From: a virus
IMG/VR virus record: IMGVR_UViG_3300013108_000108
Span: 1 to 24,089 of that record
Reading direction: 5' to 3' (one strand)
Length of the DNA stretch: 24,089 nt
The notes below the pieces were generated by a model. That model did not search any database. It saw only the letters and a list, made by a program, of their open reading frames with translations, and was not told the origin of the DNA. A program made the translations under genes and the position numbers. Positions 1-19,762 of the stretch are shown here, piece after piece; within the stretch, counting starts at the first letter, position 1, and each line of letters starts with the position of its first letter.

Positions 1-1
1 T

Positions 2-91
2 GATTTACATAGTTTTAGGATTAACATTAATAGCGATATCATTGATGTTATAAATAGAATTGCGAGAGCAATAGGTTATAAGAGGTTATAA
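2..91 (+). CDS. C-terminal end of an unknown gene cut by the window start
   Basis: The frame from base 2 is open for 29 codons and stops with TAA, three bases before the terminator stem. The visible tail is mixed, with an isoleucine-rich stretch and a basic end (IGYKRL). No family can be named. A competing reading exists: the frame from base 3 gives a very hydrophobic tail (YIVLGLTLIAISLML) that stops at 51-53, which could be the last membrane helix of a different protein. I prefer the first frame because its stop sits against the terminator, but the two cannot be separated from so short a piece. Confidence 0.4.
   Translation, partial: DLHSFRININSDIIDVINRIARAIGYKRL
49..56 (+). promoter_or_regulatory. 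Exact TATAAATA octamer (T4-type late promoter consensus)
   Basis: The octamer equals the T4 late-promoter consensus. If the upstream gene stops at 53 (the alternative frame), the motif sits at a gene end, as the other copies in this window do. If the upstream gene runs to 91, the motif is inside coding sequence and is probably chance. A start about 6 nt downstream would give an RNA of about 80 nt ending at the terminator at 94-140. Confidence 0.2.
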
Positions 92-93
92 CC
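73..93 (+). repeat. Two direct copies of AGGTTATAA, second part of a palindrome
   Basis: AGGTTATAA occurs at 73-81 and again at 83-91, a 10-base period. The second copy is part of the perfect palindrome GGTTATAACC (84-93). The spacing matches one helical turn, which would suit a protein binding one face of DNA. It could equally be low-complexity gene-end sequence. Confidence 0.35.
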
Positions 94-140
94 AAACCCA
101 CAACGTCCTTTATTTGCCATAAAGCGTTGTGGGTTTTTTT
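94..140 (+). terminator. Rho-independent terminator
   Basis: Inverted repeat AAACCCACAACG (94-105) / CGTTGTGGGTTT (125-136), with a 19-base loop and a run of T to 140. It ends the upstream transcript. The core CCCACA/TGTGGG is shared with the terminator at 22735-22761. Confidence 0.9.
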
Positions 141-222
141 GTGACTGCCAAATCTTGGTTTTAAGCAACGATCGTCAATTAAGCTCACTTACACCTTAAT
201 GCCGTTAAATCACACAAAAAAG
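141..222. other. Non-coding stretch with no recognised content
   Basis: Between the terminator and the first ATAAATA motif I see no convincing ORF with a ribosome site, no good -35/-10 pair and no strong hairpin. Confidence 0.5.
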
Positions 223-230
223 AATAAATA
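223..230 (+). promoter_or_regulatory. Putative T4-type late promoter, AATAAATA
   Basis: AATAAATA followed by CTAG, in a non-coding gap. By analogy with T4 late promoters (octamer at about -13 to -6), transcription would start near 236. That is exactly where the GC-rich structured segment begins. The assignment rests on motif resemblance and position only. Confidence 0.45.
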
Positions 231-235
231 CTAGC

Positions 236-318
236 GCCTGTCAGACAGTGGGGGTTCTGCCCTGACACGCTGGCTCGGGAGTGTTACATTCCTTGTTGAC
301 TTCCGGGCTGTTTTCTGT
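236..318 (+). ncRNA. Putative structured small RNA or leader RNA
   Basis: A GC-rich island in an AT-rich gap. Two hairpins can be drawn. The first is TGTCAG (239-244) with CTGACA (262-267), plus an inner CAG/CTG pairing. The second is a 12-base-pair stem without mismatches, 271-282 with 299-310, around a 16-base loop. Four of its pairs are G-U, so it folds well as + strand RNA and poorly as the complement, which argues for transcription on this strand. The second stem is followed by TTTTCTGTT, so it may be a weak terminator. An ATAAATA motif lies just before the element and another just after. No match to a known RNA family is recognised. Confidence 0.45.
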
Positions 319-330
319 TGATTCAATTTG

Positions 331-338
331 GATAAATA
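331..338 (+). promoter_or_regulatory. Putative late promoter GATAAATA upstream of the tail-fibre block
   Basis: GATAAATA lies 41 bases before the ATG at 380. A 6-base-pair hairpin, TTGTAT (342-347) / ATACAA (354-359), follows it. If the start were 6 nt after the octamer (about 344), most of the first hairpin arm would be absent from the RNA, so promoter and hairpin may be alternative readings. The same octamer precedes the portal and scaffold genes. Confidence 0.5.
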
Positions 339-379
339 AACTTGTATAAAGACATACAAAACAACAAGGAAATCATACT

Positions 380-505
380 ATGGAAACAGAACTAAACAAG
401 TTAATTAAGAGTTTAACAGCCCTCTCTAATCTAGCATTAATTTACCTTACTATTACGTGGGGATATGCAGGTTTAGAATTCATATTAAGGAGTATATTAA
501 ACTAA
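380..505 (+). CDS. 41-residue single-helix membrane protein
   Basis: A small ORF, ATG to TAA. A ribosome site AAGGA (366-370) lies nine bases upstream. The product starts METELNKLIKSL and continues with one long hydrophobic stretch, residues about 14-40 (LSNLALIYLTITWGYAGLEF and on), consistent with one transmembrane helix. Its TAA overlaps the ATG of the next gene in the junction TAATG, so the two are probably translationally coupled. It is the first gene after the putative promoter at 331. The role is unknown: a holin-like or host-envelope peptide is possible, but no family is recognised. Confidence 0.6.
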   Translation: METELNKLIKSLTALSNLALIYLTITWGYAGLEFILRSILN

Positions 506-837
506 TGGCAGCCGCAGAATATAATATAACAATTTCACAGAATGCAGACTTTACACGAAGCTTTCAACTAAAAGAAGCCAATGTAGTTGTTGATATAACA
601 AACAAAACGTTTTCTGGAAAGATTAAAAAGAATTACAACGAAACATCAGGCACTGACTTTACTGCAACAAATACAAACAATGCACAAGGTTTGTGGACAA
701 TGAGTCTTAGTGATACACAAACAGCCGCTCTTAAACCCGGCGATAATGTGTATGATATTGTAATGACAGACACAGTTAGTGGAGAGAAAACAAGATTACT
801 ACAAGGTAAAGCATACGTTAGCCCAGGAGTTAGTTAA
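505..837 (+). CDS. Small tail/baseplate-type beta protein
   Basis: The ATG at 505 starts MAAAEYNITISQNADF and gives 110 residues. It is preferred over an upstream GTG at 457 because AAGGAG lies at 487-492 and the start overlaps the previous stop. The pattern of an alternating polar/hydrophobic N-terminus, a middle segment with L-S-D-T-Q-T-A-A-L and then Y-D-I-V-M-T-D-T is typical of the short immunoglobulin-like or BppU-type proteins found next to phage tail fibres. It is followed without a gap by the giant fibre at 838. A structural role at the tail tip or fibre base is inferred from fold impression and position; no catalytic residues are evident. Confidence 0.65.
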   Translation: MAAAEYNITISQNADFTRSFQLKEANVVVDITNKTFSGKIKKNYNETSGTDFTATNTNNAQGLWTMSLSDTQTAALKPGDNVYDIVMTDTVSGEKTRLLQGKAYVSPGVS

Positions 838-3800
838 ATGAGCACATATACAATATTGCCAAAAGATGATAGTAATTTGGCAGTTACAGTCACCAGTGAT
901 GATCAAAGTCAAGTCATAGTTGTTGATTCAACCACACAACAAGTCACAGTTACAGAAGATGTAATAAGTGTTAGTGTTACACCAGGTCTTATTGGCAGTT
1001 TAACTGTTGATAGTGTTAATGGACACACTGGTTTGGTTGTATTAGACACTGATGATATTTCAGAAGGAACCAACAACAAATATTACACCGCAAGTCGAGA
1101 TACCGCACAATTCAATATTGATTTAGCATTAAAGACCACAGATGATTTAACTGAGGGTTCAACCAACGAATATTTTACAGATGCTAGAGCCAGAGCAGTT
1201 ATCAGTGGTGCTGGTGATATCAATTATAATAGTGCCACAGGTGTTATCAGCTTTGATAGTTCAAGCCTTGTTACAAGTGTAAACGGACAAGATGGTGCCG
1301 TTGTATTAAGCACATCAGACATCAGTGAAGGCTCAAACAAATACTGGACACAATTGCGTTTTGACAATGCATTAGGCAGTGCATCAACCACAGAATTACC
1401 AGAAGGCACAAATCTTTATTATACACCTGCCAGAGTTCAAAGTGTTATTACACAAAATACAGAACAATTTATAAAAGCTGATTCAACAGAAACCCTAACA
1501 AACAAATCAGGAAACATATCACAGTGGTCAAATGATAGTGATTATGTTACAAGTGTTAATGGAATTGAAGGTCCATCAACAGTATTAGACACAGACAATA
1601 TTCAAGAAGATACAAGCCCAACAAACAAATGGTTCACAGAAGCTAGAAGTAGAGCTTCAATTAGTGTAAACGACACTGGTGGAGATGGAAGTTTAAGTTA
1701 CGACAACACCACAGGTGTTCTTACTTACACAGGCCCAGCACCAAGTGATGTTAGAGTTTTACTAAGTGCCGTTGATGCTGGTGGAGATGGAAGCTTCAGT
1801 TATGATAGTTCAACTGGTGCATTCACTTACACTGGACCAAGTGCCACAGAAGTAAGAGCACACTTTACAGATGGTGTTGGAACAACTTATGATAACACTG
1901 ACGGAAGCTTTGACATTGGACAACCAGTTGGAACCAATGATGATGTAGAATTTAACAATGTTGTTGCTGATGAATTCATTGGAACAATAAGAGGTGAACA
2001 AGTATTCTTAGCTGAAGCAAGTGAAAATTTAAGCAAAGGCGATGTTGTTTATATTGATGGTGTTGCAGGAAACACACCAACAGTTGCTAAAGCTGATGCA
2101 GATGATACTGCTAAAATGCCAGCCTTTGGTTTAGCCAATGCTGACACAACCAGTGGAAACAGTGTTGAAGTTGTAGTTAACGGACAAATACATAATCTTG
2201 ACACAAGTGGTTTTAATTTAGGTGATAATGTTTACGTATCAACCACAGCAGGTGTGTTAACAAATGTGCCACCAAGTGGTGAAAACACTCTATTACAAAG
2301 TATTGGTAAAGTAGAAAGAGTTCACGCTAATGTTGGAGCAATATTTGTTAGTGGTGCGGGTAGAACAAATGCTACACCAAACTTAGATGATGGAAACATA
2401 TTCATTGGAAATGCTGCGAACTCAAGTTCAACTGCAACGCTAGATACCAGCATTGTTCCAGAAAATACTAATTTATATTACACAGACTCTAGAGCTGATG
2501 CCAGAGTCGATTTACAAACAGGAGCCAACCTCGACCTAAGTTTTGCGGACACAGATGACTTAGCAGAAGGACCATCAAACCTTTATTACACAGACGGCAG
2601 AGCTAGACTCAGTTTAACTGTTACAGATAACGGTGGTGATGGAAGTATCACGTATGACAGTGCTACAGGTGAAATTGATTACACCGGACCAAATCAAACA
2701 GAAGTAAGAGCACATATTACAAAAGCATTTGTTGATGCATTAGGCATTCAAGCGTCAAGTGTAGATGCTGACAGTGTTGCATTAGGCACAGATACAACAG
2801 GTGATTATGTGCAAAGCATTACAGGAACAGCAAACAAAATTGAAGTAAGCGGAAGTGGAACAGAAGGTAGACCAGTTACATTAACGTTACCAAGCACAGT
2901 TCAAATTGCACAAGATTTAACTGTAGGCGGAAACCTTACTGTAAACGGTGACTTAACATATCTAAACACAACAGACTTACAAATACAAGATAACTTATTT
3001 GAACTAAATGCAGGCTTAACAGGCGCACCAACAAATGACAGTGGAATGTTAGTTCAAAGAGGAACTGAAACAAATCAAATCTTTATGTGGGACGAAAGTG
3101 TAGACAAGTTTACATTGGGTGCCACTGCCAGTGAAGAAGGTGCTAAAGGAAACATAAGTGTTACTGTTGGAACATTGGTTGCAAACATTGAAGGTGATGT
3201 TACTGGTGATTTAACTGGTAATTCAAGTGGAACACACACAGGTGCAGTTATTGGTGATGTTACTGGTGATGTATTGGGTGATGTTACAGGTAACTTAACA
3301 GGTGATTCAAGTGGAACACACACTGGACCTGTTACAGGAACAACTGTTACTGCAAGTGGTGGATTTCAAGGTTCATTGGTTGGTCAAGTTACAGGAAATG
3401 TTACTGGAGATGTTACTGGAGATGTCACAGGCGATGTTACAGGTAAAATAACATCAACAGGAACAGGCGCACAAAAGAGTGTATTTACAGAAGTTGACAT
3501 CAATGGTGGCACAATAGATGGCACACCAATTGGCGGCAATGTAGCAAGCACAGGTGAATTTACAACTGTATCAACCACAGGTTCAATTACTGCTAATACA
3601 GGATTTGTTGGAAATGTAACAGGTGATGTTACAGGTTCAGTTACTGGAAACGTTACAGGAAATGTTACAGGAAACTTAACAGGTGATGTTACTGGTAATG
3701 TTAGTGGAACTGCCGGCACTGTTACAAGTTTAAGCAATCACGATACAGATGATCTAAGTGAAGGATCAACTAATCTATATTACACAACAACACGAGCCAA

Positions 3801-6800
3801 CACAGACTTTGATAGTAGATTAGCTACCAAAGACACAGACGATTTAGCAGAAGGTTCAAATGAATATTATACAGATGCCAAAGTATTAACTAAGATTAAC
3901 AACACCAGCATTGACGGTTTAAGCGATGTTGACACAACCACAGATACACCATCAGTTGCACAAGTATTAGAATGGGACGGAACCAATTGGGTCCCAGGTG
4001 ACTCAGGTATTGGTGATGTTACACAAACAGGCACACAAACACTAACCAACAAAACACTAACAACACCAATTATAGATGAATTAGGTAATAATGAAATTCA
4101 TTTGCCTCTTGATACAGGTTCAAATCATACTTTAATAAGTTCAACAGCATTAACTACTGGAACAAGTGGATTGCCAAACAGTCCATATATTAATAGATTC
4201 CACAGTAAATTAAAATTAAACACAGACTATAGTGGAAGTGATCAAGAATACTTTAGTGTAAGAGCGGCATACAGTGCCAATAATCCAGCTGCTACACCAA
4301 CAACAAGTGACAATTATATATCTGTAATGGAATTGCGTGGCACTGGTTCAAATATTGCCCATCAACTGCCAGGCTATGATCCAGATCATCTTGGTAAACA
4401 AAATGTTATAAGAAGTGTTGTATCAGGAGATGGATACGATCCTACCATGGGTAGACTGCAAATTGATGCAAGTGAACTTATATTCTTTGACAACGCATAC
4501 AAGTTCCCGTCAAGTTCCCCTGCAACTGGAGAAGTGTTATACGCTCAACATCTTAACAACGGCATAATGCAGTTGGGTTGGACTTCAAACACTGGAACAG
4601 TTTCAAGTGTTAACAGTCTTTCAGGCGCAGTTGTATTAAACACAGATGATATTGATGAAGATGCTAATCCAACAAACTTATATTACACAGATGCTAGAGT
4701 AGAAAGCAAATTAAACGCCACTAACTTAGATGAAATGCAGGATGTTGTTTATACAACAGCTCCACAGGCAGGTGAAGTGTTGCTATGGGATAGCAATGTT
4801 TTTCCAAATGGTGCATGGAGACCAAACGTAGTATCAGGAACAGGAACAGTAACAAGTGTTACAGGTGGAGTTGGTTTAACTGGTGGAACTATTACAACTG
4901 CCGGAACATTAGACGTTGATGTTGGAACAACTGCAAACAAGATAGTTCAATTAACTGGTAATGCAAAACTACCAGCAGTTGATGGTTCATTATTAACAAA
5001 TGTGCCAGCGTCAGGTGTGCAAAGTATTACACCAGGACCAGGTTTATATAATACACAAGGTGGAACAGGTGTTCCTATTACAAACAGTGGACAAATCAAT
5101 GTAGATGTTGGAACATTTAGTAATGGTTATATTGACAAGATTTGTCAATTTGATTCAAGTGGTAGACTACCAGCAGTTGATGGTTCACAATTAACCAGCT
5201 TGGCCTGGAGTGCATTAACAGGCACACCTACTACTATTGCAGGTTATGGAATAACTGATGCATTTGATGGAGCATTCAGTTCACTAAGTGGAACACCTAC
5301 TACTATTGCAGGTTATGGAATTACAGATGCATTTGATGGCGATTACAACAACTTAACAAACCAACCAACTATTCCAACAAACAACAATCAATTGACTAAC
5401 GGTGCAGGTTATACATCTAATACTGGAACCGTAACAAGTGTTGATAGTGGAACAGGATTAACAGGTGGACCAATTACAGGTTCTGGAACATTAAACGTTG
5501 ATGTTGGCACAGGTGCAAATCAAATAGTTCAATTAGATTCAAGTTCAAGACTACCAGCAGTCGACGGTTCACAGTTAACAAACATGCCATCAGGAACCAC
5601 AATCAACGGCAATGTAGACAACAGACTTATCACAGCTAGTGGAACAGCAAACACATTAAATGGTGAAGCTGACTTTACTTGGGATGGAAGCAATGCAGTT
5701 ATAGATGGTGATAACGGTTCAGGTGGTGGTGGCACTAGACTTGTAACACCAGTATTACATTTGAAAACAAGTGATAGTGGTTGGTATGCTGGACAGTTGA
5801 TGTGTAGTGATGCAAACGGTAAAGTGTTCACTCAGGTTGGACAACACAGCACATCTCTAGACACATATCAATGGAACATTACGCTAGATCCAGATAATAC
5901 ACATGGACGCTCAGGTGGTGTTACAACACATCCTGGTGATTACTTTATTGATTTCCAAAAAGATTATAAAGATCAAAGTGCCATTAAAATGAAGCAAAGA
6001 GTATTTGGTGCTAATGGTGGATTTGAATTAAGCATCCATGATGACTTTAACAGTGGATCACCAAGCTCAGGTCCAACTGGAGGTCCTGGATATGGATACA
6101 AACCATTTACACTTAAAGCAACTTCAATGACATTTGATAATGATGGTGATTCATACAAATTCCCTACAGGTGATGGAACTGCAGATCAGATAATAACAAC
6201 AGATGGTAATGGTAATTTAACATTTGTAGATCCAGAAGTAACATTAACTGGAACAGAAACACTAACAAACAAAACACTGTCAGCACCTGTTATTAGCGGC
6301 GGAATAACTTATCCTGCTAACACTGGAAATGGTAATACATTTACACCATTAAAGATTACTAATGAATATGATTCAAGTTTAACATATGATTACAGTATAT
6401 GGAACGGTGCTTTCAATATGGAAAACTACACAGATCCATATAATAAGAAAGTTAATGTTTGGCAATTAAGTTCAGAAAACAGAAAGAATTTCTTTAGAAT
6501 TGATTTAGAAAATAAAGTAGGCGTAAACGGTGATGGAACCAAAGAAGCTTCAAGTGTTACTGCTGGTAGTTTTGTTACTGGAAACAGATATCAAATTACA
6601 AGTGTAGGAACCACAGACTTTACACAAATTGGTGCAGCAAGCAATACTGTTAATTTAACATTTACGGCAACTGGTGCAGGTAGTGGAACAGGCACAGCAG
6701 ATAATTGGGACACAGGTTCAGGTAGTGTGTTGTTTTCACTTAAAGGTGGAGATGACATTGGATTTGTTCTTGCAAGCGGCGGACTCTCAGTTGGAACCAA

Positions 6801-7206
6801 ATATAGAATTCACACTGTTGGCACAACAGACTTTACAGCCGTTGGTGCAGCAAACAACAATGTAGGCACAGAATTTGTTTGTGACGCTACAGGTTCAAGT
6901 GGATCAGGTGTTGCAGTTGATCTGAGTCCGACTGCTGGTGAATTTAATCAATTTACTGCACACACTGGAACACAAACTCCTCCAGGTTGGCGCACTAACT
7001 TGAGTTTTGATGCAGAAAAAATTAGAATACACAGTGCTTACAACTTACCAAAATCAGATGGAACAAACGGACAAGTAATAACAACTGATGGTAATGGACA
7101 ATTAAGTTTTGAAGATCCTGAAACAATTACACTGACAGAATTAAAATCAGTAGTAGCTGCAAGTTCAGACTTTGCAGACTTCCAAAGCAGAATAGCTGCA
7201 CTTTAG
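838..7206 (+). CDS. Giant repetitive tail fibre, 2122 residues
   Basis: A mosaic host-recognition fibre. The visible parts are as follows. About ten copies of a D-D-(L/I)-x-E-G-(S/T)-x-N-x-Y-Y-T-D-A-R-A type repeat are scattered over residues 75-1290. A compact domain at about 385-525 contains KGDVVYI and LDTSGFNLGDNVYVS and resembles decoration-type (DUF2190-like) sequence. A common marine-fibre segment lies at about 700-775. A block at about 785-960 consists mainly of G-D-V-T-G/G-N-V-T-G repeats. T-Q-T-L-T-N-K-T-L motifs are present, and two copies of GTPTTIAGYGITDAFDG lie at about 1460-1500. Two copies of a V-G-T-T-D-F-T-x-(I/V)-G-A module lie at about 1906-2019, and the C-terminus is ASSDFADFQSRIAAL. 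There is no S74 chaperone domain. It starts directly after the previous stop (TAAATG). The function is inferred from repeat types known in marine phage fibres. Confidence 0.85.
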   Translation: MSTYTILPKDDSNLAVTVTSDDQSQVIVVDSTTQQVTVTEDVISVSVTPGLIGSLTVDSVNGHTGLVVLDTDDISEGTNNKYYTASRDTAQFNIDLALKTTDDLTEGSTNEYFTDARARAVISGAGDINYNSATGVISFDSSSLVTSVNGQDGAVVLSTSDISEGSNKYWTQLRFDNALGSASTTELPEGTNLYYTPARVQSVITQNTEQFIKADSTETLTNKSGNISQWSNDSDYVTSVNGIEGPSTVLDTDNIQEDTSPTNKWFTEARSRASISVNDTGGDGSLSYDNTTGVLTYTGPAPSDVRVLLSAVDAGGDGSFSYDSSTGAFTYTGPSATEVRAHFTDGVGTTYDNTDGSFDIGQPVGTNDDVEFNNVVADEFIGTIRGEQVFLAEASENLSKGDVVYIDGVAGNTPTVAKADADDTAKMPAFGLANADTTSGNSVEVVVNGQIHNLDTSGFNLGDNVYVSTTAGVLTNVPPSGENTLLQSIGKVERVHANVGAIFVSGAGRTNATPNLDDGNIFIGNAANSSSTATLDTSIVPENTNLYYTDSRADARVDLQTGANLDLSFADTDDLAEGPSNLYYTDGRARLSLTVTDNGGDGSITYDSATGEIDYTGPNQTEVRAHITKAFVDALGIQASSVDADSVALGTDTTGDYVQSITGTANKIEVSGSGTEGRPVTLTLPSTVQIAQDLTVGGNLTVNGDLTYLNTTDLQIQDNLFELNAGLTGAPTNDSGMLVQRGTETNQIFMWDESVDKFTLGATASEEGAKGNISVTVGTLVANIEGDVTGDLTGNSSGTHTGAVIGDVTGDVLGDVTGNLTGDSSGTHTGPVTGTTVTASGGFQGSLVGQVTGNVTGDVTGDVTGDVTGKITSTGTGAQKSVFTEVDINGGTIDGTPIGGNVASTGEFTTVSTTGSITANTGFVGNVTGDVTGSVTGNVTGNVTGNLTGDVTGNVSGTAGTVTSLSNHDTDDLSEGSTNLYYTTTRANTDFDSRLATKDTDDLAEGSNEYYTDAKVLTKINNTSIDGLSDVDTTTDTPSVAQVLEWDGTNWVPGDSGIGDVTQTGTQTLTNKTLTTPIIDELGNNEIHLPLDTGSNHTLISSTALTTGTSGLPNSPYINRFHSKLKLNTDYSGSDQEYFSVRAAYSANNPAATPTTSDNYISVMELRGTGSNIAHQLPGYDPDHLGKQNVIRSVVSGDGYDPTMGRLQIDASELIFFDNAYKFPSSSPATGEVLYAQHLNNGIMQLGWTSNTGTVSSVNSLSGAVVLNTDDIDEDANPTNLYYTDARVESKLNATNLDEMQDVVYTTAPQAGEVLLWDSNVFPNGAWRPNVVSGTGTVTSVTGGVGLTGGTITTAGTLDVDVGTTANKIVQLTGNAKLPAVDGSLLTNVPASGVQSITPGPGLYNTQGGTGVPITNSGQINVDVGTFSNGYIDKICQFDSSGRLPAVDGSQLTSLAWSALTGTPTTIAGYGITDAFDGAFSSLSGTPTTIAGYGITDAFDGDYNNLTNQPTIPTNNNQLTNGAGYTSNTGTVTSVDSGTGLTGGPITGSGTLNVDVGTGANQIVQLDSSSRLPAVDGSQLTNMPSGTTINGNVDNRLITASGTANTLNGEADFTWDGSNAVIDGDNGSGGGGTRLVTPVLHLKTSDSGWYAGQLMCSDANGKVFTQVGQHSTSLDTYQWNITLDPDNTHGRSGGVTTHPGDYFIDFQKDYKDQSAIKMKQRVFGANGGFELSIHDDFNSGSPSSGPTGGPGYGYKPFTLKATSMTFDNDGDSYKFPTGDGTADQIITTDGNGNLTFVDPEVTLTGTETLTNKTLSAPVISGGITYPANTGNGNTFTPLKITNEYDSSLTYDYSIWNGAFNMENYTDPYNKKVNVWQLSSENRKNFFRIDLENKVGVNGDGTKEASSVTAGSFVTGNRYQITSVGTTDFTQIGAASNTVNLTFTATGAGSGTGTADNWDTGSGSVLFSLKGGDDIGFVLASGGLSVGTKYRIHTVGTTDFTAVGAANNNVGTEFVCDATGSSGSGVAVDLSPTAGEFNQFTAHTGTQTPPGWRTNLSFDAEKIRIHSAYNLPKSDGTNGQVITTDGNGQLSFEDPETITLTELKSVVAASSDFADFQSRIAAL
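3193..3720 (+). repeat. Degenerate GGTGATGTTACTGGT-type repeats inside the tail-fibre gene
   Basis: Repeating units of about 12-15 bases encode G-D-V-T-G, G-N-V-T-G and G-N-L-T-G. They occur in two clusters (about 3193-3336 and 3391-3714), separated by less repetitive sequence. Two copies of a longer unit encode L-T-G-(N/D)-S-S-G-T-H-T-G. The copies differ mainly at synonymous positions, which points to older duplications followed by drift. Confidence 0.75.
5221..5339 (+). repeat. Near-identical 50-base direct repeat in the tail-fibre gene
   Basis: Bases 5221-5270 and 5290-5339 match at 47 of 50 positions by direct comparison. Both encode GTPTTIAGYGITDAFDG, the known fibre repeat. Their period is 69 bases, a multiple of three, so gain or loss of one unit would keep the frame. 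Confidence 0.8.
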
Positions 7207-7215
7207 GAGATATAG

Positions 7216-7809
7216 ATGGCACAAATAATTAAACCAAAACGTAGACATACTAGTGGAGCACCAACAACAAGTGATTTGGTTGAAGGTGAAATTGCAGTAA
7301 ATACACATGATTACAGTATCTATGTTAGAGATGATGCAAACAATATATTAAGAGTTGGCGGTGTGCAAACACCAATGCTAGAAGACTTGGATACTGCATC
7401 ACATGAAATAAAAACTACAACATCAATAAACAGTAATCTTGGATTACCAAATGTTGTTAAGATGGGATCATATTTTAAATTACCACATGTTGACAGCACT
7501 CATGCAACTGATTTTAGAATTGATGCACAATACTGTGAAGTAGGCAAAAGATATATGATTTCAGTTGTAGGTGATACTGATTGGACTGCAATGGGAGCCA
7601 GTGCTAACTTAACAAATCAAATCTTTACATGCACGGCAACTGGAAGTGGAACTGGAACATGCCAAGTTGGTGATGATTATTTTGGAATAATAGCATATGA
7701 TCCAGGCTCTGAATATATGGTTGTATACAATGAATATGACAGTGATGCAACTTCAGGATCAGCAATAAGATTTGGCTGGCAGAAACTATCCAAAGGCCAG
7801 TTCACATAA
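7216..7809 (+). CDS. Second fibre-like or receptor-binding accessory protein
   Basis: 197 residues, with GGAG at 7207-7210 just before the ATG. The N-terminus (KPKRRHTSGAPTTSDLVEGE, then I-A-V-N-T-x-D-x-x-I-Y-V-R) is the short segment often found at the start of phage fibre and tropism proteins, thought to dock the fibre to the tail. Residues about 105-150 carry the same V-G-D-T-D-W-T-A-M-G-A ... T-G-S-G-T-G-T module found twice at the end of the preceding fibre. The C-terminus is acidic and aromatic without a recognised domain. It lies ten bases after the fibre, so the two probably act together. It may be a short side fibre or fibre cap. Confidence 0.65.
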   Translation: MAQIIKPKRRHTSGAPTTSDLVEGEIAVNTHDYSIYVRDDANNILRVGGVQTPMLEDLDTASHEIKTTTSINSNLGLPNVVKMGSYFKLPHVDSTHATDFRIDAQYCEVGKRYMISVVGDTDWTAMGASANLTNQIFTCTATGSGTGTCQVGDDYFGIIAYDPGSEYMVVYNEYDSDATSGSAIRFGWQKLSKGQFT

Positions 7810-7824
7810 TAAAGGAGATCTACC

Positions 7825-8181
7825 ATGATTGAAAATGCGGACAACACTGAGGACAAACAGGAAAAAGCAGCACCAAAGAAAGGTGCACCAAAAAAAGAAA
7901 TAGATGTAAAAGTGTTACGCAACTTATTAGAAATACAATGCACAATAAAAGAATGTGCCCATGTATTAGGTGTAAGCACAGATACATTACAAAGAAACTA
8001 CAAAGATGTAATCGCACAGGGTAAAACCCAAGGTAAAGTTGCATTACGTAGAGCACAATGGAGAAACGCAATTGAGAAGAACAATGTTACTATGCAAATT
8101 TGGCTTGGTAAAAATGTTCTTAACCAAAGCGATACTCCATTAGATGAAGAAGCAGGAACTATTCTGCCTTGGACTGATTAA
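7825..8181 (+). CDS. Terminase small subunit
   Basis: 118 residues with a strong ribosome site (AAAGGAGA). A lysine-rich N-terminus is followed by a helix-turn-helix at about 39-62 (CTIKECAHVLGVSTDTLQRN). Next is a basic helix (KVALRRAQWRNA) and the motif NVTMQIWLGKNVLNQSD (87-103), which is characteristic of one family of phage small terminases. The protein would recognise phage DNA and regulate the large terminase. It is separated from the large subunit by small membrane-protein genes rather than abutting it, which is the main oddity. Confidence 0.8.
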   Translation: MIENADNTEDKQEKAAPKKGAPKKEIDVKVLRNLLEIQCTIKECAHVLGVSTDTLQRNYKDVIAQGKTQGKVALRRAQWRNAIEKNNVTMQIWLGKNVLNQSDTPLDEEAGTILPWTD

Positions 8182-8196
8182 TATAAGGTAAAGTCA

Positions 8197-8421
8197 ATGA
8201 GCAAACAAAACAAGTGGGCGGAAGTCACAGAACAAAACAGTAAAGATATTGTGGATATTAAACATGATATCAAAGTTATAAAGGACAACCATCTAAGCCA
8301 CTTGGAAGCTGATATGGCAAAACAATCAAAAGCAATTGAAAAGATAGACAACCGCATTTGGTGGGTGTTGGGAATTTTAGTTGCATCAACAGTGATAGGA
8401 ATGATTAAAAATGGCTTATAA
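8197..8421 (+). CDS. XhlA-like membrane protein with coiled coil, possible lysis protein
   Basis: 74 residues. Residues about 8-52 have the heptad-like pattern of a coiled coil (NSKDIVDIKHDIKVIKDNHL onward). They are followed by one transmembrane helix at about 54-70 (IWWVLGILVASTVIGMI) and a short basic tail. This layout is that of the haemolysin XhlA / phage holin-accessory family. AAGG at 8185-8188 is the ribosome site. Together with the two-helix protein at 8457 it forms a plausible holin pair, although no endolysin is in the window. The assignment rests on layout; a general membrane anchor is the alternative. Confidence 0.6.
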   Translation: MSKQNKWAEVTEQNSKDIVDIKHDIKVIKDNHLSHLEADMAKQSKAIEKIDNRIWWVLGILVASTVIGMIKNGL

Positions 8422-8455
8422 AAAGAAGAAAAAGAAAAAATACGGTAAGAAGTAA
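8411..8455 (+). CDS. 14-residue lysine-rich peptide, MAYKKKKKKKYGKK
   Basis: The ATG at 8411 lies inside the end of the previous gene in another frame, and the TAA at 8453-8455 is one base before the next ATG. AGGA at 8397-8400 is ten bases upstream, a usable ribosome site. It encodes nine lysines in 14 residues, flanked by tyrosines and glycine. It fills exactly the space between its neighbours, which favours a real gene. A purely A-rich spacer that happens to be open is the alternative. The function is unknown; nucleic-acid or membrane binding would be a guess from charge. Confidence 0.4.
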   Translation: MAYKKKKKKKYGKK

Positions 8456-8456
8456 T

Positions 8457-8669
8457 ATGAAACTAACCCCAGAACAATTAGATGCTTGGAGAGTGATACC
8501 AAGAATGTTGATACTAACATATATGATATGTTTTTATCTTGTTATAACTTGGTTTATGGATTTACCAGATCCAAACAATGCTCAGGCAGCATTTACTAGC
8601 ACAATGATTGGTGCAGGTGCGGCTTGGTTTGGACTTTATGTAAACGGAAAATCAAATGCCTCTAAGTGA
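8457..8669 (+). CDS. Two-helix small membrane protein, putative holin
   Basis: 70 residues. A short N-terminal amphipathic part (PEQLDAWRVIPR) precedes a transmembrane helix at about 17-34, a turn rich in Pro, Asp and Asn (DLPDPNNAQ), and a second helix at about 45-62 ending GAGAAWFGLYV. Small proteins with this DPNNAQAAF...GAGAAWFGLYV signature are common in marine phage genomes and usually lack a tested function. Size and topology fit a class II holin. The gene overlaps the start of the large terminase by 14 bases. Confidence 0.6.
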   Translation: MKLTPEQLDAWRVIPRMLILTYMICFYLVITWFMDLPDPNNAQAAFTSTMIGAGAAWFGLYVNGKSNASK

Positions 8670-9891
8670 TGTTCAAAAAGAAGTTAGCAATGACCCAAGT
8701 AGATTTAAGGTTGTTGTTGCAGGAAGAAGATGGGGCAAAAGCTGGTTATCAATGCATGAGATGGCCAAACATGCTAGGTTTCCCAATAAAAAGATCTTTT
8801 ATGTTGCACCAACATACAAGATGTGTCGTCAAATATTATGGGATGACATTAAGGAAAAATTTATAAGAGCCCGTTGGGCTAAGAAGATTAATGAAAGTAA
8901 TTTAGAAATTACATTAGTTAACGGCAGTAGAATATATTTACGTTCAGGTGATAACCCTGATAATTTGCGAGGTGTAAGTATGGATTACTTGGTTATGGAT
9001 GAAGCAGCTATGATAGATCAAAAGATGTGGACAGAAGTATGCCGCGCCGCACTAAGTGACAGACAAGGCGGTGCTATGTTTATTACAACTCCACAAGGCA
9101 AAGGTAGTTGGGTTTATGATTTATGGCAAGGTGCACATTCGCAAGAGAATTACAGTGCGTTTCAATACACTACATTACAAGGTGGTAATGTTACACAAGA
9201 AGAGATTGATGCAGCACGAAACGAATTAGATGAGAAATCATTTAGACAAGAATATGAAGCTAGTTTTGAAAGTTATGCTGGTGCAATTTATTATAATTGG
9301 GACAGTGCTACACATATTAAGAAACAAGATGTAGAATTTAAGAAGAATGAAATACTACATGTTGGAATGGACTTTAACGTATCGCCAGAAGTGGCTATGA
9401 TTTGCAGAGTTAATGGCAATGAAATAAGCGTTATAGATGAAATTAGTATGGAAGGATCAAATACATTTGAAATGGCAGAGGAATTGTTAAACAGATATCC
9501 AAATAATAGGTTATGGGTTTATCCAGATGCGTCAGGACAAGCACGCAAAACCAGTTCAAATACTTCAGATCATCACATACTAAGAAATGCAGGATTTGTG
9601 TTGAAAGTTAGAAACATCAACCCACCTGTTAAAGATAGAATAGCAAGTGTGAATGCAAGTTTAAAAGCAACAGATGGTAGCGTTAAACTTACAATTGATC
9701 CAAAGTGTAGGCATTTGATTAAATGTATTAGTAGTCAGACTTACAAGGAAGGCACGAGAATTCCAGACAAAAGCGGCAACCTCGATCATATGAATGATGC
9801 TTTAGGATACTTAGTGCATTGGATTAATCCAATAAGAACTAACAAACCAGAACACGCGAACACTAGTCCGCAGTTATGGGGCCATCATTAA
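8656..9891 (+). CDS. Terminase large subunit
   Basis: 411 residues; the ATP-driven motor and nuclease that packages DNA into the prohead. Walker A is AGRRWGKS (22-29) and Walker B is YLVMDEA (111-117), with D115 and E116. The coupling motif is TTPQGKGS (144-151). The C-terminal RNase H-like nuclease has the expected acidic residues: D239 in VGMDFN, D291 in YPDASG, and D377/D381 in DHMNDALGY. All core motifs are intact. The start overlaps the upstream membrane-protein gene by 14 bases, with only a weak GGA ahead, so translation is probably coupled. The first motif lies close to the N-terminus, so no shorter start is likely. Confidence 0.95.
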   Translation: MPLSDVQKEVSNDPSRFKVVVAGRRWGKSWLSMHEMAKHARFPNKKIFYVAPTYKMCRQILWDDIKEKFIRARWAKKINESNLEITLVNGSRIYLRSGDNPDNLRGVSMDYLVMDEAAMIDQKMWTEVCRAALSDRQGGAMFITTPQGKGSWVYDLWQGAHSQENYSAFQYTTLQGGNVTQEEIDAARNELDEKSFRQEYEASFESYAGAIYYNWDSATHIKKQDVEFKKNEILHVGMDFNVSPEVAMICRVNGNEISVIDEISMEGSNTFEMAEELLNRYPNNRLWVYPDASGQARKTSSNTSDHHILRNAGFVLKVRNINPPVKDRIASVNASLKATDGSVKLTIDPKCRHLIKCISSQTYKEGTRIPDKSGNLDHMNDALGYLVHWINPIRTNKPEHANTSPQLWGHH

Positions 9892-9896
9892 AAAAG

Positions 9897-9904
9897 GATA
9901 AATA
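9897..9904 (+). promoter_or_regulatory. Putative late promoter GATAAATA before the portal gene
   Basis: The octamer lies six bases after the terminase stop codon. It is followed by a 6-base-pair hairpin, TCAACA (9917-9922) / TGTTGA (9932-9937), and then the ribosome site. The same order (AAAAGGATAAATA, hairpin, AAAGGA, ATG) occurs before the scaffold gene at 12311-12383. Confidence 0.5.
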
Positions 9905-9968
9905 ACAAATATAGACTCAACACTTGATCACTGTTGAAAGAACTACCCTTATAAAGGAAAATATAATT

Positions 9969-11447
9969 ATGTTAACATTAGAACAATTAGAACAAACACA
10001 CCCTAGCTACAATGAAGTAGCCAAACAGGCTAACTACCACTACAAATCATATGTGGGTGGAGAATTGTATAAAAGTGGTAGTTACTTAACAAAATACATT
10101 GGCGAAAACGCTGGTCCAGGTGATCAGTATGGAAAGAGATTAGATTCAACTCCACTAGACAACCATGTGCAAACAACCGTAGATATTTACAGAAGCTTCT
10201 TATTTAGAACACTTCCAAAGCGTGAATTAGGCTTGTTAATCAACAACCCGTTGGTTAATGCTTGGCTTTATGACACGGACCAAGAAGGACAAAGCCTAGA
10301 CAGTTTCTTAAAAACTGCTAACGACTTGGCTATGGTGCATGGATCAAGCTGGATATTAATCGATAAGGCAAGTTACAAAGTAGAAACAGAAGCTGAAGCA
10401 ATAGCATTAGGTATCCGTGCTTATGCGGCAGTTTACACTCCACAAAACGTATTAGATTTTTATTGGGAGCGTAACATTGCAGGCAAGATGGAACTTGAAT
10501 ACATCAAAGTAAGAGAATCAGAAAATGATGAATATGTTACATTTACATGTTGGCACAAAGGTTATATAGAAAAATACAAAGTAACCAAAGACAAGCAAGG
10601 CAACTTAGAAAAAATAGTTGAACACGAAGAATATGAAAACCCATTGGGTTACATTCCATTTGTGTTTCACGCTCCACTAAAAAGTCCTACAAAAGGTGTG
10701 GGATTAAGTTTGATTGCGGATGTGGCAAACCAACAGAAATTCATATATAATTGTGCTAGTGAAATTGAACAACATTTGAGAATCAGTTCACACCCTACAC
10801 TAGTTAAACCAACAAGCACAGATGCAGTGGCTGGGGCTGGGTCAATCTTAAATTTAGATGAGTCAGTTGATCCAGGATTGAAACCTTATTTGCTTTCACC
10901 AGCATTAAGCACAACAGATAGTATACTAAAAGCAATTGATAATGCAGTTAACAGTATTAAACGCATGACACATACAAGTGCAATACAGGCAACAACAGGT
11001 TCACCAATGTCAGGTGTAGCATTACAAACAGAAAGACAATTGTTAAATGCTAAATTAAGTGACATGGCTGATACACTAAAAGAAACAGAATATCAAATGT
11101 GGATTACTTGGTTAGATTGGCAAGCATTAAGTATGCCAGAAGACTTTAATTTGGAATATCCAGAAACATTTGATATGCGTGATGAGATGCTTGAGTTAGA
11201 ATTTTTAATGAAAGCAAGAAGTTCAGGTGTATCAAATCAAATGTTCCAAGATGAGATTAGTAGACAAGTTGTTGCACTAACAGTAGATGATGATGAAATA
11301 CAAAATGAAATCTTATCAGATATGGATGGTGGTGAATTTGAACCACACGAAATGACAAACCCAGAAACTGGAGCTGTTACTGTTGTTACATCACAAGAGC
11401 AACATGAACAATTAAGTGCATTGGGTTATACACATGAGGGTGAATAA
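9969..11447 (+). CDS. Portal protein
   Basis: 492 residues from the ATG at 9969. I prefer this to an upstream TTG because AAGGA (9954-9958) is ten bases away and the preceding 60 bases look like a leader. It would form the dodecameric ring at the prohead vertex through which DNA enters. The sequence begins LEQLEQTHPSYNEVAKQANY and has the mixed alpha/beta body and long helical C-terminal half of SPP1-like or DUF4055-like portals. Near the end of the second third is a glycine/threonine-rich stretch, ATTGSPMSGVALQTERQLLN, comparable to the conserved S-G-x-A-L segment of portals. Position after the large terminase and before a MuF-like gene supports the call. Confidence 0.82.
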   Translation: MLTLEQLEQTHPSYNEVAKQANYHYKSYVGGELYKSGSYLTKYIGENAGPGDQYGKRLDSTPLDNHVQTTVDIYRSFLFRTLPKRELGLLINNPLVNAWLYDTDQEGQSLDSFLKTANDLAMVHGSSWILIDKASYKVETEAEAIALGIRAYAAVYTPQNVLDFYWERNIAGKMELEYIKVRESENDEYVTFTCWHKGYIEKYKVTKDKQGNLEKIVEHEEYENPLGYIPFVFHAPLKSPTKGVGLSLIADVANQQKFIYNCASEIEQHLRISSHPTLVKPTSTDAVAGAGSILNLDESVDPGLKPYLLSPALSTTDSILKAIDNAVNSIKRMTHTSAIQATTGSPMSGVALQTERQLLNAKLSDMADTLKETEYQMWITWLDWQALSMPEDFNLEYPETFDMRDEMLELEFLMKARSSGVSNQMFQDEISRQVVALTVDDDEIQNEILSDMDGGEFEPHEMTNPETGAVTVVTSQEQHEQLSALGYTHEGE

Positions 11448-11449
11448 AC

Positions 11450-12310
11450 TTGGCTTTCAATGTAAAGAAACATGACAGAGTTGTTGATAAAGCATTAGAA
11501 ACTATCAAAGCTGATGTGTTTGATAATGTTAAGGCATTAGAAAATACTATTGCTGATATAGTAGCACAAGAACTCCCACCAGAAACGGTAAGACCGCAAA
11601 TATTAGCAGCAGTGGCAGAACAAAGTGAGACTGTTAAACTTGCGGCACAACCTTTAACAACTATCAGTGAAGACTTTATGGCTCAAAGTAAAAACCCGGC
11701 TGGTCCGGAAGACTTTCAAAGCCAAAGTGCATTGTTAGATTTAAGTAGTGAAGAATTAAGTAATGCAATGTCAAGCTCAGGCGAAGATATTGTAAAAACA
11801 GTGGTGCTTGGCACAGTTGCAGGAATAGGAACTGCAACATTAATAAATCAAGCACGAGGAAGAGTCAGCGGAATATATATGGATTCAACAGATCCAGATG
11901 TAAGACGCGAACAACGTAATTTACGTAAATTAGTTAAAGGTGGTGCAAGTGCGGCGTTAGTCAATCAAAGCACAAACAAACTAAGACGTATGTTACCAGG
12001 AAGTGTTAATACAGCAGGTTCAATTGCTGTTAAATTAACAACAACGGCAGATAACGTTGTAGGTAGCTATAATGGCACTTATGCAAAAGCTCAAGCATCA
12101 CGTAATGGTGTTGAGAACTTTGAATATGTAGGTGGTGTTATGGCAACAAGTAGACCTTTTTGTGTATCAATGGTAGGCAGTATAATGAATGCAGAAGATA
12201 TACAAAATCTATGGGATGGTAGTAGTTGGGCTGGTAAAGAACCAGGTGATCCATTTGTTGTAAGAGGTGGATACAATTGCCGACACTATTGGGTGCCCGT
12301 AGAAGAATAA
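11450..12310 (+). CDS. MuF-like minor head (head morphogenesis) protein
   Basis: 286 residues from a TTG start, supported by GAGGG (11436-11440) inside the portal end and by lack of a better start. The N-terminal part is helical. The C-terminal 55 residues carry the hallmark of SPP1 gp7 / Mu F-type minor capsid proteins: R-P-F-C, then a segment with A-E-D-I-Q-N-L-W, and finally GGYNCRHYWVPV with paired Cys and His. These proteins bind the portal and are carried in the head. Order portal, MuF-like, scaffold, capsid is the standard one. The weak TTG start may keep its copy number low. Confidence 0.8.
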   Translation: MAFNVKKHDRVVDKALETIKADVFDNVKALENTIADIVAQELPPETVRPQILAAVAEQSETVKLAAQPLTTISEDFMAQSKNPAGPEDFQSQSALLDLSSEELSNAMSSSGEDIVKTVVLGTVAGIGTATLINQARGRVSGIYMDSTDPDVRREQRNLRKLVKGGASAALVNQSTNKLRRMLPGSVNTAGSIAVKLTTTADNVVGSYNGTYAKAQASRNGVENFEYVGGVMATSRPFCVSMVGSIMNAEDIQNLWDGSSWAGKEPGDPFVVRGGYNCRHYWVPVEE

Positions 12311-12315
12311 AAAAG

Positions 12316-12323
12316 GATAAATA
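12316..12323 (+). promoter_or_regulatory. Putative late promoter GATAAATA before the scaffold gene
   Basis: The octamer begins six bases after the stop of the MuF-like gene. A perfect 5-base-pair hairpin, GATAC (12340-12344) / GTATC (12349-12353), follows, then AAAGGA and the ATG at 12383. The layout parallels the leader at 9892-9968 and would give extra transcription of scaffold and capsid. Confidence 0.5.
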
Positions 12324-12382
12324 AAGATATATAAAAGTAGATACTTTAGTATCCAACCCTAACTTAATAAAGGAATATTGAC

Positions 12383-13069
12383 ATGACAATTGATAATCAT
12401 GGTGTGGAAACACAAACTGAAACTGTAGACACTGGGGATACAGCAACAGGCCAAACAAATGACTCCCAGGTTGAAGCCACTAAGACTTTTACTCAAGAAG
12501 AAGTAAATGAACTTATTGGCAAACGTGTTGCCCAAGTTAACAAGAAGTATGAAGGTGTTGACGTGGCGGAATACAACGCACTCAAGAGCTTGAAAGAGCA
12601 AGTTGAGGAAGAGAAACTAATCAAGAAGGAAGACTTTAATGGTGTTCTTAAAAAGCAAAAAGAAAAGTCTGATATGGAAATATCTAAACTTAGAAGTGAG
12701 CTTGAAAAGATCAAAATTGATGGTGCATTAATTGATGCGGCATCTAAAAGTAAAAGTGTTGCTCCTGATCATGTTGCTCAACTATTGAGAGGAAACATTA
12801 GACTAGACTCAGATGGTAACGTTATGGTTACTGATGAAACTGGAAAACAACGCTATACGGATTCAGCTGATCCAATGAGTGTTACCCAACTAGTTGAAGA
12901 GTTCCTATCAAGTAATACGTATTTCAAAAGTGCAGGCCCAAGTGGTGCAGGCTCTAAAGGCAATACAAATAACGCTAGTCCACAGAGTTTGGAATTAGCA
13001 CAACTTGATCTTACTAATGCTGAACATCGAAACTTATATAAGAAGATGAAAGCTGAAGGTAAGGTATAA
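12383..13069 (+). CDS. Capsid scaffolding protein
   Basis: 228 residues. After an acidic, threonine-rich start comes FTQEEVNELIGKRVAQVNKK, the phage scaffold signature. It is followed by a long highly charged helical region (about 65-115) likely to be a coiled coil, then a small ordered region and a glycine/serine/asparagine-rich tail. Such proteins direct assembly of the prohead shell and are then removed. It directly precedes the major capsid gene, as usual. No protease gene is visible nearby and no protease motif is seen in this protein. Confidence 0.85.
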   Translation: MTIDNHGVETQTETVDTGDTATGQTNDSQVEATKTFTQEEVNELIGKRVAQVNKKYEGVDVAEYNALKSLKEQVEEEKLIKKEDFNGVLKKQKEKSDMEISKLRSELEKIKIDGALIDAASKSKSVAPDHVAQLLRGNIRLDSDGNVMVTDETGKQRYTDSADPMSVTQLVEEFLSSNTYFKSAGPSGAGSKGNTNNASPQSLELAQLDLTNAEHRNLYKKMKAEGKV

Positions 13070-13092
13070 TTTTATAATTAGGAGAAAATGAT

Positions 13093-13908
13093 ATGGCAGA
13101 CGCATATTCATCAGGTTCATCTTTAGGTGACCTACTAGTCCCGTTAAAAGCGGCGACAATTTATCAAGCACAAGAACAATCTTTGTTCTTATCAGGTGCT
13201 TTAATCCCAATGGTTTCAACACCAGGTATCACATTACGTGTTCCAAAAATTGCAGACGTTACAGCTGAATCACTAGCTGGCGCAGACTTTACAGGTGATG
13301 TTACAGCACAAAACGTAACAGACGATAAAGTTGATATCGCAGTTGACTTAATAGCTGCACGTTCAGTTGTAAGAGACTTAGGCGGAATTTCAACAGACGA
13401 AATTGGCAGATCACTTGGACAAAGTGTTGCGAAAAAGTTTGATGAAGCTTGTATTACAGCTCTAGACTCACTAGAAGTCAAAGAGACTCCAGCTGACATT
13501 GGTTCAGTGGACGTTAACGACATCTTAGAAGTTGTTGGTCAAATCCGTGGAAACGGTGAAATGGGACAGCTATACGCAGTTCTTTCACCAACTGCAGCAG
13601 TTGAGCTAATGAAAAACATTGGCACAGACGCTTATGCTGGTGGTGATTTCCAAACTGAAGCACTACGTAACGGTTTCTTAGGAAAAGTTGCTGGTGTTAA
13701 CATGTTTATGTCAGCACACGTAGAAGGTGTAACTAAGATGGGTTACATCTTTGGTGAGAACGCGGCAAGAATCGCAATGCAAAAGAATGTTGATGTAGAA
13801 ATTGGCAGACGTGCAGAAGCAGTTGGTTTTGATGTTGTGGCATCAATCGCTGCTGGTGTTGGCGTTGTTGACTCTACACGCGGTGTTAAAATGGTTGACG
13901 CAGCTTAA
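13093..13908 (+). CDS. Major capsid protein
   Basis: 271 residues with a strong TAGGAG ribosome site. The layout fits a short HK97-fold capsid protein: the helical N-terminus SLGDLLVPLKAATIYQAQEQ, a glycine/proline turn before a beta strand (VSTPGITLRVPKI), a central helix (IGRSLGQSVAKKFDEACITA) and the later strand-rich segment GVNMFMSAHVEGV. The C-terminal D-V-V-A-S-I-A-A-G-V-G-V is typical. No N-terminal delta domain of about 100 residues is present, which is consistent with a separate scaffold gene. Codons include more C-ending forms (atc, gac, aac) than in neighbours, as expected for the most highly translated gene. Confidence 0.88.
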   Translation: MADAYSSGSSLGDLLVPLKAATIYQAQEQSLFLSGALIPMVSTPGITLRVPKIADVTAESLAGADFTGDVTAQNVTDDKVDIAVDLIAARSVVRDLGGISTDEIGRSLGQSVAKKFDEACITALDSLEVKETPADIGSVDVNDILEVVGQIRGNGEMGQLYAVLSPTAAVELMKNIGTDAYAGGDFQTEALRNGFLGKVAGVNMFMSAHVEGVTKMGYIFGENAARIAMQKNVDVEIGRRAEAVGFDVVASIAAGVGVVDSTRGVKMVDAA

Positions 13909-13924
13909 TCAGTAAACACGCTTA

Positions 13925-13949
13925 TACTGGGGGGTCTAACTCCCCAGTA
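13925..13949 (+). terminator. Stem-loop after the major capsid gene
   Basis: TACTGGGG (13925-13932) / CCCCAGTA (13942-13949) with a nine-base loop. No T-run follows, so it is more likely an RNA stability or processing element, or a partial attenuator, than a full terminator. The next gene begins 20 bases later. Confidence 0.6.
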
Positions 13950-13969
13950 ATTTAACTAGGAGAAATAAA

Positions 13970-14383
13970 TTGGCTTACGCAACAGCAGAAAACTTAAACT
14001 TTTATGCACCAGAAGTATACGAAGGTGATACAGAAGATTGGGACGCAGAACTGGCATTAGCTGAAACTGATATCAAAAATAAGATTGAAGTTAAGTGGTA
14101 TGATCAGGTAAAAGGTGGATCAACATTTGATGCATCTAAATTAACTGAGTCACAATGGACTAAAGCCACTGTTTATCAAACATTGGTTGCTTATGTGTTT
14201 CCAAAAATGTCTACCTTTAGAGTTGAAGATACATTCATTGAACAAATTAAGTTTTATCAAGAAAGACTTAAAGATGAATTAGATATGCAATTCGCATTGG
14301 GTATAAAGTATGATGATGACGGAGATGGAACTACTACCGTTGAAGAAACATACAAATACGCTCAAACAAGGTTATACAGATAA
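13970..14383 (+). CDS. Head-tail connector (adaptor) protein
   Basis: 137 residues from TTG, with AGGAG seven bases upstream (13958-13962). The mostly helical start (ATAENLNFYAPEVYEGDTED) and the pattern of alanine and acidic residues followed by L-T-E-S-Q-W-T-K-A-T-V-Y-Q-T-L resemble small connector proteins that sit below the portal, such as the HK97 gp6 or SPP1 gp15 group. The stop overlaps the start of the next gene (TAATG). It is called mainly from size, helical content and its place after the capsid gene. Confidence 0.6.
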   Translation: MAYATAENLNFYAPEVYEGDTEDWDAELALAETDIKNKIEVKWYDQVKGGSTFDASKLTESQWTKATVYQTLVAYVFPKMSTFRVEDTFIEQIKFYQERLKDELDMQFALGIKYDDDGDGTTTVEETYKYAQTRLYR

Positions 14384-14811
14384 TGGCCACAATAAGCGAT
14401 AGAGAAAGTATATGTGCTGAGATTGTTTCTTTATTTAAGAAACAACGCTCAGTAAAGTTTGGTAGAGTAGTCAGGGATCCAATCATTCCTGAGGAACTAC
14501 CACGCACTGCATTTCCGGCAGTTTATGTTGAATCAAGTGATGAAGACATAGAGGATATTGCATTTAGTGGATTAAGAGAAGGAGTTATGGAAGTTGCTTG
14601 TGTTGTAGTAATATCAGGCAAGAACCGTAATACCCAACTTAATGTAGCCATTAAGGCTATGGAAGATTCCATTAATGCAGATAGAACGTTGGATGCAAAA
14701 GCAATGGATTGTTCTCTTACGAGAATAGAACAACTTGAGGCAGGTGACATGAGTCCTTTCAGCTCAAGTAGAGTAGTGTTTACAGTTTCTTATGTATATA
14801 CTATTGAATAA
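14383..14811 (+). CDS. Tail terminator / tail completion protein
   Basis: 142 residues, coupled to the previous gene by TAATG. It begins with a helix (DRESICAEIVSLFKKQRSVK). Strands follow, with P-R-T-A-F-P-A-V-Y-V, then a long helix (LNVAIKAMEDSINADRTL), and it ends with strands (RVVFTVSYVYTIE). This is the order of lambda gpU-like tail terminators, which cap the tail tube and join it to the head. It lies directly before the tube gene, as expected. An alternative is another minor neck protein. Confidence 0.6.
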   Translation: MATISDRESICAEIVSLFKKQRSVKFGRVVRDPIIPEELPRTAFPAVYVESSDEDIEDIAFSGLREGVMEVACVVVISGKNRNTQLNVAIKAMEDSINADRTLDAKAMDCSLTRIEQLEAGDMSPFSSSRVVFTVSYVYTIE

Positions 14812-14831
14812 CATTAATCAGGAGAAATATA

Positions 14832-15221: not shown

Positions 15222-15228
15222 GTTAAAT

Positions 15229-15258
15229 AGTATAGGCTGGGTAATACCAGCCCATACT
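15229..15258 (+). terminator. Stem-loop after the tail tube gene
   Basis: AGTAT (15229-15233), one unpaired A, GGCTGG (15235-15240), loop GTAATA, CCAGCC (15247-15252), one unpaired C, ATACT (15254-15258). Only two T follow directly, then TAAATT. It is probably a partial terminator or 3' stabiliser that helps set a high tube-to-other-protein ratio. Confidence 0.6.
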
Positions 15259-15275
15259 TTAAATTAGGAAATGAT

Positions 15276-15560: not shown

Positions 15561-15579
15561 CTAACAAGGAGAAACAGTT

Positions 15580-16061: not shown

Positions 16062-16077
16062 TTGAAGGAATTAAACT

Positions 16078-19139: not shown

Positions 19140-19142
19140 AGC

Positions 19143-19760: not shown

Positions 19761-19762
19761 AC

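Follow-up and report, generated by a model that had tools for sequence, protein, structure and literature searches.

The window is a 24,089-base virus record from IMG/VR. Its structural genes encode tape measure, tail terminator, tail assembly chaperone, distal tail, and J-like proteins, while the genes scanned include no T4-type tail genes apart from fibre-related matches. The terminase is nearest to those of HTVC026P, DSL-LC06, and Vibrio phages, with 42–45% identity. By its gene content, the phage is siphovirus-like, not T4-like. A non-coding stretch between the intrinsic terminator of a preceding gene and a 41-aa ORF holds the whole element described here (Table 1), about 8 kb from the terminase genes, and equivalent terminators are found upstream of the element in the related contigs L002, L003, and L004. 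A search for tRNA and tmRNA genes was negative. Inspection by eye also turned up a short GTG ORF that spans hairpin 2, which was discounted, as the stem covaries and the frame is lost in the relative L008.

Downstream of the element, the 41-aa membrane-type ORF is conserved, always leads the fibre operon, and matches nothing in Pfam, PHROG, or the phage collection. Next come the LtfC-like protein and the giant repetitive fibre protein. In one related contig (L262:9784-13664), the region between the tail module and the RNA gene contains several small genes, very few of which match Pfam or PHROG entries. Upstream, a TTACCAAAATAAAGGTTTTGTTGAACC ... TTACAATTGGATTTGCAGAGATGCAA-like stretch recurs 5′ of the preceding terminator in L003, L240, L246, and L247, and may represent a second conserved, possibly non-coding stretch.

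Table 1 Features of the RNA element and its surroundings in the window.
Feature	Position	Strand	Basis or remark
Intrinsic terminator of preceding gene, AACCCACAACG ... CGTTGTGGGTTTTTTT	95..140	+	Direct reading
P1, promoter-like motif AATAAATA, preceded by ACAAAAAAG	223..230	+	TAAATA in 15/15 copies
Hairpin 1	233..271	+	Folding, covariation
Octaloop UGGGGGUU, on 3-bp CAG/CUG stem 246-248/257-259	249..256	+	Identical in 14/15 copies
Hairpin 2, terminator-like, 12 pairs including outer U-G	271..310	+	Folding, covariation
Anti-ribosome-binding-site loop (loop 2) UUCCUUGUUG	289..298	+	Exact reverse complement of 362-371
U-tract TTTTCTGTT, inferred RNA end	311..319	+	T-richness over 15 copies
P2, GATAAATA motif for fibre operon	331..338	+	GATAAATAA in 15/15 copies
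CAACAAGGAA ribosome-binding region of 41-aa gene, putative target	362..371	+	Loop 2 complementarity
41-aa membrane-type ORF, fibre operon gene 1	380..505	+	Kept in relatives
LtfC-like tail fibre protein	505..837	+	PF23926, phrog_3304; start overlaps previous stop (TAATG)
Giant repetitive fibre protein, 2122 aa	838..7206	+	Start abuts previous stop (TAAATG)
AACAAGGA ribosome-binding region of tail assembly chaperone gene (15580-15927)	15563..15570	+	Possible second target

The initial annotation had described a GC-rich island with two stems between two ATAAATA-type motifs, and all of these components were recovered, with AATAAATA as the first motif and GATAAATA as the second. The second stem (271–282 with 299–310) indeed has 12 pairs, including four G-U pairs and no mismatch, and runs directly into TTTTCTGTT, provided that the outermost U271-G310 pair is counted; RNAfold assigns this stem 11 pairs because U271 is used in hairpin 1. 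Searches of IMG/VR with the neighbouring proteins and loop motifs recovered, besides the window, 18 contigs with the complete element and one with a partial element. The comparisons below draw on 15 distinct sequences (the window, L002, L003, L004, L008, L016, L239, L240, L245, L246, L247, L250, L286, L290, and L292), which as orthologous copies are not independent observations. All 15 share a common layout of TAAATA motif, hairpin 1, hairpin 2, U-tract, second GATAAATA motif, and ACAAGGA ribosome-binding site. Within contig reach, every copy adjoins the same three downstream genes, and a covariance model finds a single copy per genome in a constant place.

Relative to dinucleotide-shuffled controls, the window alone folds with a modest excess of stability (z −1.7 for 95 nt and −2.2 for the trimmed 80-nt element), so stability alone is not decisive, and the reality of the structure is settled by the relatives, most of which fold with z between −2.5 and −4.2, and by covariation. 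The folding test proposed earlier for this locus was therefore only weakly positive in the window and clear in most relatives, while the covariation expected among relatives was found. In the 15-sequence alignment, 98.3% of cells in the 12 common pairs are paired, and double changes occur in eight of these pairs (24 double-change cells). The covariation score of 0.516 compares with 0.233 in column shuffles, none of which reached it (0/500), and slid controls pair at no more than 56%. An ungapped alignment of the six closest sequences is consistent with this over 27 pairs. Compensatory changes thus exceed those of both the shuffled and the slid controls, as for an RNA with conserved secondary structure, with stems that vary by compensatory substitution and loops that stay constant. 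The middle stem of hairpin 1 (239–244/262–267) covaries, while its outermost four pairs (233–236/268–271) are weakly kept, which fits an RNA start near position 236. Two adjacent hairpins form the fold of nearly every member; in L290 this fold is obtained only with the octaloop held open, about 2 kcal/mol above the predicted optimum.

The G-U pairs identify the transcribed strand, as had been argued from the window. Of the 176 paired cells in the alignment, 19 form G-U in + strand RNA, and an antisense transcript would have A-C at these places. Not one of the few cells left unpaired in the common stems is A-C, so the sense strand is the RNA. Taken together, the comparative data make it nearly certain that window positions 231–320 encode a member of a structured RNA family. 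A terminator with chance structure only, or a DNA element such as a packaging site, would account for the terminator-like form of hairpin 2 and for the modest significance of the single-sequence window fold. This explanation is extremely improbable given two covarying hairpins with invariant loops, G-U pairs that fit sense RNA only, and the distance to the terminase genes; in addition, an intrinsic terminator needs no conserved loop.

The RNA matches no described family that we could find. No Rfam 15 model matched the window stretch at its gathering score, with only chance-level similarities, and none matched L016, L245, L290, or L292 with E up to 0.5, in keeping with the initial statement that the RNA was not recognised. 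The literature consulted, with partial coverage, likewise yielded no description of this RNA. The covariance model gave no matches in HTVC026P (bases 1-19973 only), HTVC111P, HTVC112P, HTVC202P, or DSL-LC06, nor in the LtfC regions of Melnitz-1, Mosig, and S-CAM1; across all of these, the best chance match had E 0.33. Among isolated phages, megablast returned no DNA match, a more distant search mode returned chance matches only, and no homologue of the 41-aa protein was found. Bacterial genomes contained 24 pattern matches; the best bacterial model score (L304, Aequorivita, E 0.0014) came from a locus in which the structure proved absent on inspection. Loci L011-L014, L020, L021, L045, L062, L288, L291, and L318-L324 carry the pattern without the fold and were judged to be chance occurrences. 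Since a final scan keyed on hairpin 1, loop 2, and P2 also gave chance matches only, the RNA family appears restricted to this lineage within IMG/VR.

The flanking motifs belong to a strand-specific class. In ten contigs of the group, GATAAATA occurs 39 times in the sense and never in the antisense orientation, with 31 of the occurrences intergenic, and related forms (TATAAATA, AATAAATA, GCTAAATA, and others) occur 56 times in sense versus once in antisense. With almost every gene in the same orientation, codon preference may contribute to the bias, but the promoter-like sites fall mostly outside genes. By analogy, the TAAATA-type motif would form a promoter-like class resembling T4 late promoters, in which a phage sigma factor reads a −10 element of TATAAATA type. 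No sigma factor was found among the scanned genes of these incomplete records. The description of the RNA gene as late thus keeps the resemblance of its motif to T4 late promoters but not a T4-like phage; as the phage is siphovirus-like, we infer "late" from the motif and from the structural genes that it precedes. In the window, NATAAATA motifs stand on the coding strand at the gene boundaries at 331, 9897, 12316, and 22792, and also at 223 and 22530, several of them with AAAAAAG in front. Just 5′ of P1 (window 200–222), a conserved TGCC is followed about 15–20 nt later by CAAAAAAG, a pair also present upstream in L002, L003, L239, L240, L246, L247, and L250; in L250 extra sequence separates the pair from P1. 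This arrangement suggests an extended promoter or activator site.

At the 3′ end, the nine positions after hairpin 2 contain a mean of 6.1 T over the 15 copies versus 2.3 in the background, and hairpin 2 has the form of an intrinsic terminator, a GC-rich stem directly before a U-tract. A simple consensus terminator scan, whose rule needs loops of 3–8 nt, did not report hairpin 2 in the window or in L016. Some copies, L002 and L003 among them, have a weak U-tract at which transcription may read through. The proposal of a self-contained RNA gene of about 80 nt is supported, at the level of sequence, by covariation, the U-tract, a sense-only promoter motif, and the lack of an Rfam counterpart. 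Two adjacent stem-loops of about 70–80 nt directly after a phage promoter also recall putL of HK022, whose put RNA is not a terminator and acts in cis on RNA polymerase (PMC9378689). A processive antiterminator of this kind, in which the nascent two-hairpin RNA would stay on RNA polymerase so that later terminators are read through, is quite unlikely here because, unlike in HK022, a conserved U-tract comes directly after hairpin 2 and P2 lies beyond it. In addition, conservation sits in the apical loops, and the match of loop 2 to a gene start would be left unexplained.

The octaloop of hairpin 1 is the most constant part of the RNA. Of the 15 copies, only L240, with UGAGGGUU, departs from the UGGGGGUU sequence of the other 14, and the loop is carried on closing stems of six different sequences (CAG/CUG, CUG/CAG, CGG/CCG, AGG/CCU, UGG/CCG, and CAA/UUG) that are 100% paired. 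From this constancy we infer that the loop is a candidate recognition element. In computed pairings, the interaction of the UGGGGGUU loop with loop 2 is weak, and a generic 16S anti-Shine-Dalgarno is a stronger partner, with −9.6 kcal/mol between GGGGGU of the loop and ACCUCC of the generic 16S rRNA 3′ end; a role for either modelled pairing is speculation. One reading of these data is a decoy: the UGGGGGUU loop would capture either a protein, of phage or host origin, or the 16S anti-Shine-Dalgarno, and the complementarity of loop 2 would be secondary. The constancy of the octaloop on six stems and the favourable 16S pairing fit such a decoy, which is nevertheless unlikely, since it leaves loop 2 and the fixed place 5′ of the fibre operon unexplained and one copy carries the variant loop. 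Doubtful to a greater degree is a two-loop regulator in which GGGGGU would mimic a Shine-Dalgarno sequence and UUCCUU an anti-Shine-Dalgarno, the two loops kissing and then opening to engage both mRNA and ribosome. If true, such a regulator would re-tune the translation starts of several late genes, beyond the neighbour alone.

The loop of hairpin 2 is complementary to the downstream ribosome-binding site, a feature that had been missed in the initial annotation. The UUCCUUGUUG loop is the exact reverse complement of CAACAAGGAA, which lies 5′ of the 41-aa ORF. UCCUUGU in the loop and ACAAGGA at the ribosome-binding site are each present in 15/15 copies, and loop and site share 7–11 Watson-Crick nucleotides in all 15. 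Loop 2 is partly a generic anti-Shine-Dalgarno, and some complementarity is expected at any gene start; because UCCUU complements any AAGGA, the match was compared with all other gene starts. By match length, the adjoining gene ranks first or second in eight of ten genomes. By accessibility-corrected pairing energy (−4.7 to −8.9 kcal/mol at the adjoining gene in ten genomes), it ranks between 1 and 5 of 26–33 gene starts in every genome. In these computations, loop 2 offers accessible and conserved complementarity to a translation start. An ACAAGG before the start codon is conserved in only 2 of 25 gene families, those of the 41-aa gene and the tail assembly chaperone. In L240, L246, and L247, the loop UGU persists while its local mini-stem partner ACA is gone, which suggests that UGU is held by the mRNA. 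On the same branch, the flanks of the pairing have drifted without compensation, leaving 7 nt in L240 and L246. The AACAAGGA region of the tail assembly chaperone gene (15563–15580) is also conserved and complementary to loop 2, and by its sequence this gene is a possible second target.

These observations bear on whether the RNA acts as a separate molecule or as part of the fibre mRNA. The main rival to a discrete RNA is a cis-acting leader or attenuator, in which P1 would be the main fibre-operon promoter and hairpin 2 would terminate part of the transcripts; on read-through, loop 2 would form a long-range pseudoknot with the ribosome-binding site some 70 nt further on, and a binder of the UGGGGGUU loop might act as the switch. 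Element and operon share a strand, the element always comes directly 5′ of this operon, loop-site complementarity holds in 15/15 copies, and the U-tract is variable and sometimes weak, all as expected of a leader. Against this, P2 is equally conserved (15/15) between element and gene and would bypass the leader, the U-tract is always present, and the RNA has neither a ligand-aptamer-like core nor an Rfam riboswitch match. We consider a leader rather unlikely, and prefer a discrete small RNA because it accounts for more features than the rivals do: P1 and P2, the U-tract between them, the complementarity of loop 2, and the fixed genomic position. The cis and trans modes may coexist.

In the preferred reading, P1 would drive an RNA from about position 236 to about 318, the start being placed by analogy with T4 late promoters and the end at hairpin 2 as intrinsic terminator. 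Loop 2 (UUCCUUGUUG) would pair in trans with the CAACAAGGAA region of the mRNA that starts at P2, and the same pairing could form in cis on any read-through transcript. Such pairing would block ribosome binding to the 41-aa gene and, through presumed translational coupling, reduce synthesis of both the LtfC-like and the giant fibre protein, because the starts of these two genes overlap or abut the preceding stops. Given a promoter class common to RNA and target, the RNA would be likely to serve in dampening or balancing the output of fibre in the late phase of expression. On sequence grounds, we give somewhat better than even chances to a self-terminating late small RNA that represses the fibre operon at translation, with the tail assembly chaperone perhaps a further target; the RNA probably tunes tail-fibre output. 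The invariant loop of hairpin 1 is left unexplained by this pairing mechanism.

Several known phage RNAs share parts of this design. VpdS, DicF, and other phage-derived small RNAs pair with ribosome-binding sites in trans (PMC12197685). The RNA described here would resemble them in being short, with its own promoter, a terminator-like 3′ end, and a seed complementary to a ribosome-binding site. It differs in sharing a strand with its putative target and sitting right in front of it, in carrying the seed in the terminator loop, in having a second invariant loop, and in belonging to an uncultured marine siphovirus-like group; any role of Hfq would be hypothetical here. Lambda OOP and aQ and P22 sas are antisense RNAs from the strand opposite their targets (PMC12197685). 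Like these, the present element would be a small phage RNA that acts on a neighbouring phage gene by base pairing, but its complementarity is confined to a loop of 7–11 nt. Lambda 6S RNA is a short transcript that begins at the late promoter and stops at a terminator close by, ahead of the late genes. The likeness would extend to a short RNA with a promoter-proximal terminator before structural genes, and the differences are the second promoter motif and a loop whose complementarity to the gene downstream is conserved.

The family and its layout therefore appear new, while the kind is already known, since phage small RNAs that pair with mRNAs have been described (PMC12197685). Few phage-encoded regulatory RNAs have been described in uncultured marine phages, and the present work adds to these phages a well-supported RNA family absent from Rfam. 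It also reveals a strand-specific, TAAATA promoter-like class in a siphovirus-like genome, and offers an explicit and mutable base-pairing hypothesis in which giant tail-fibre genes would be balanced by an RNA instead of a protein.
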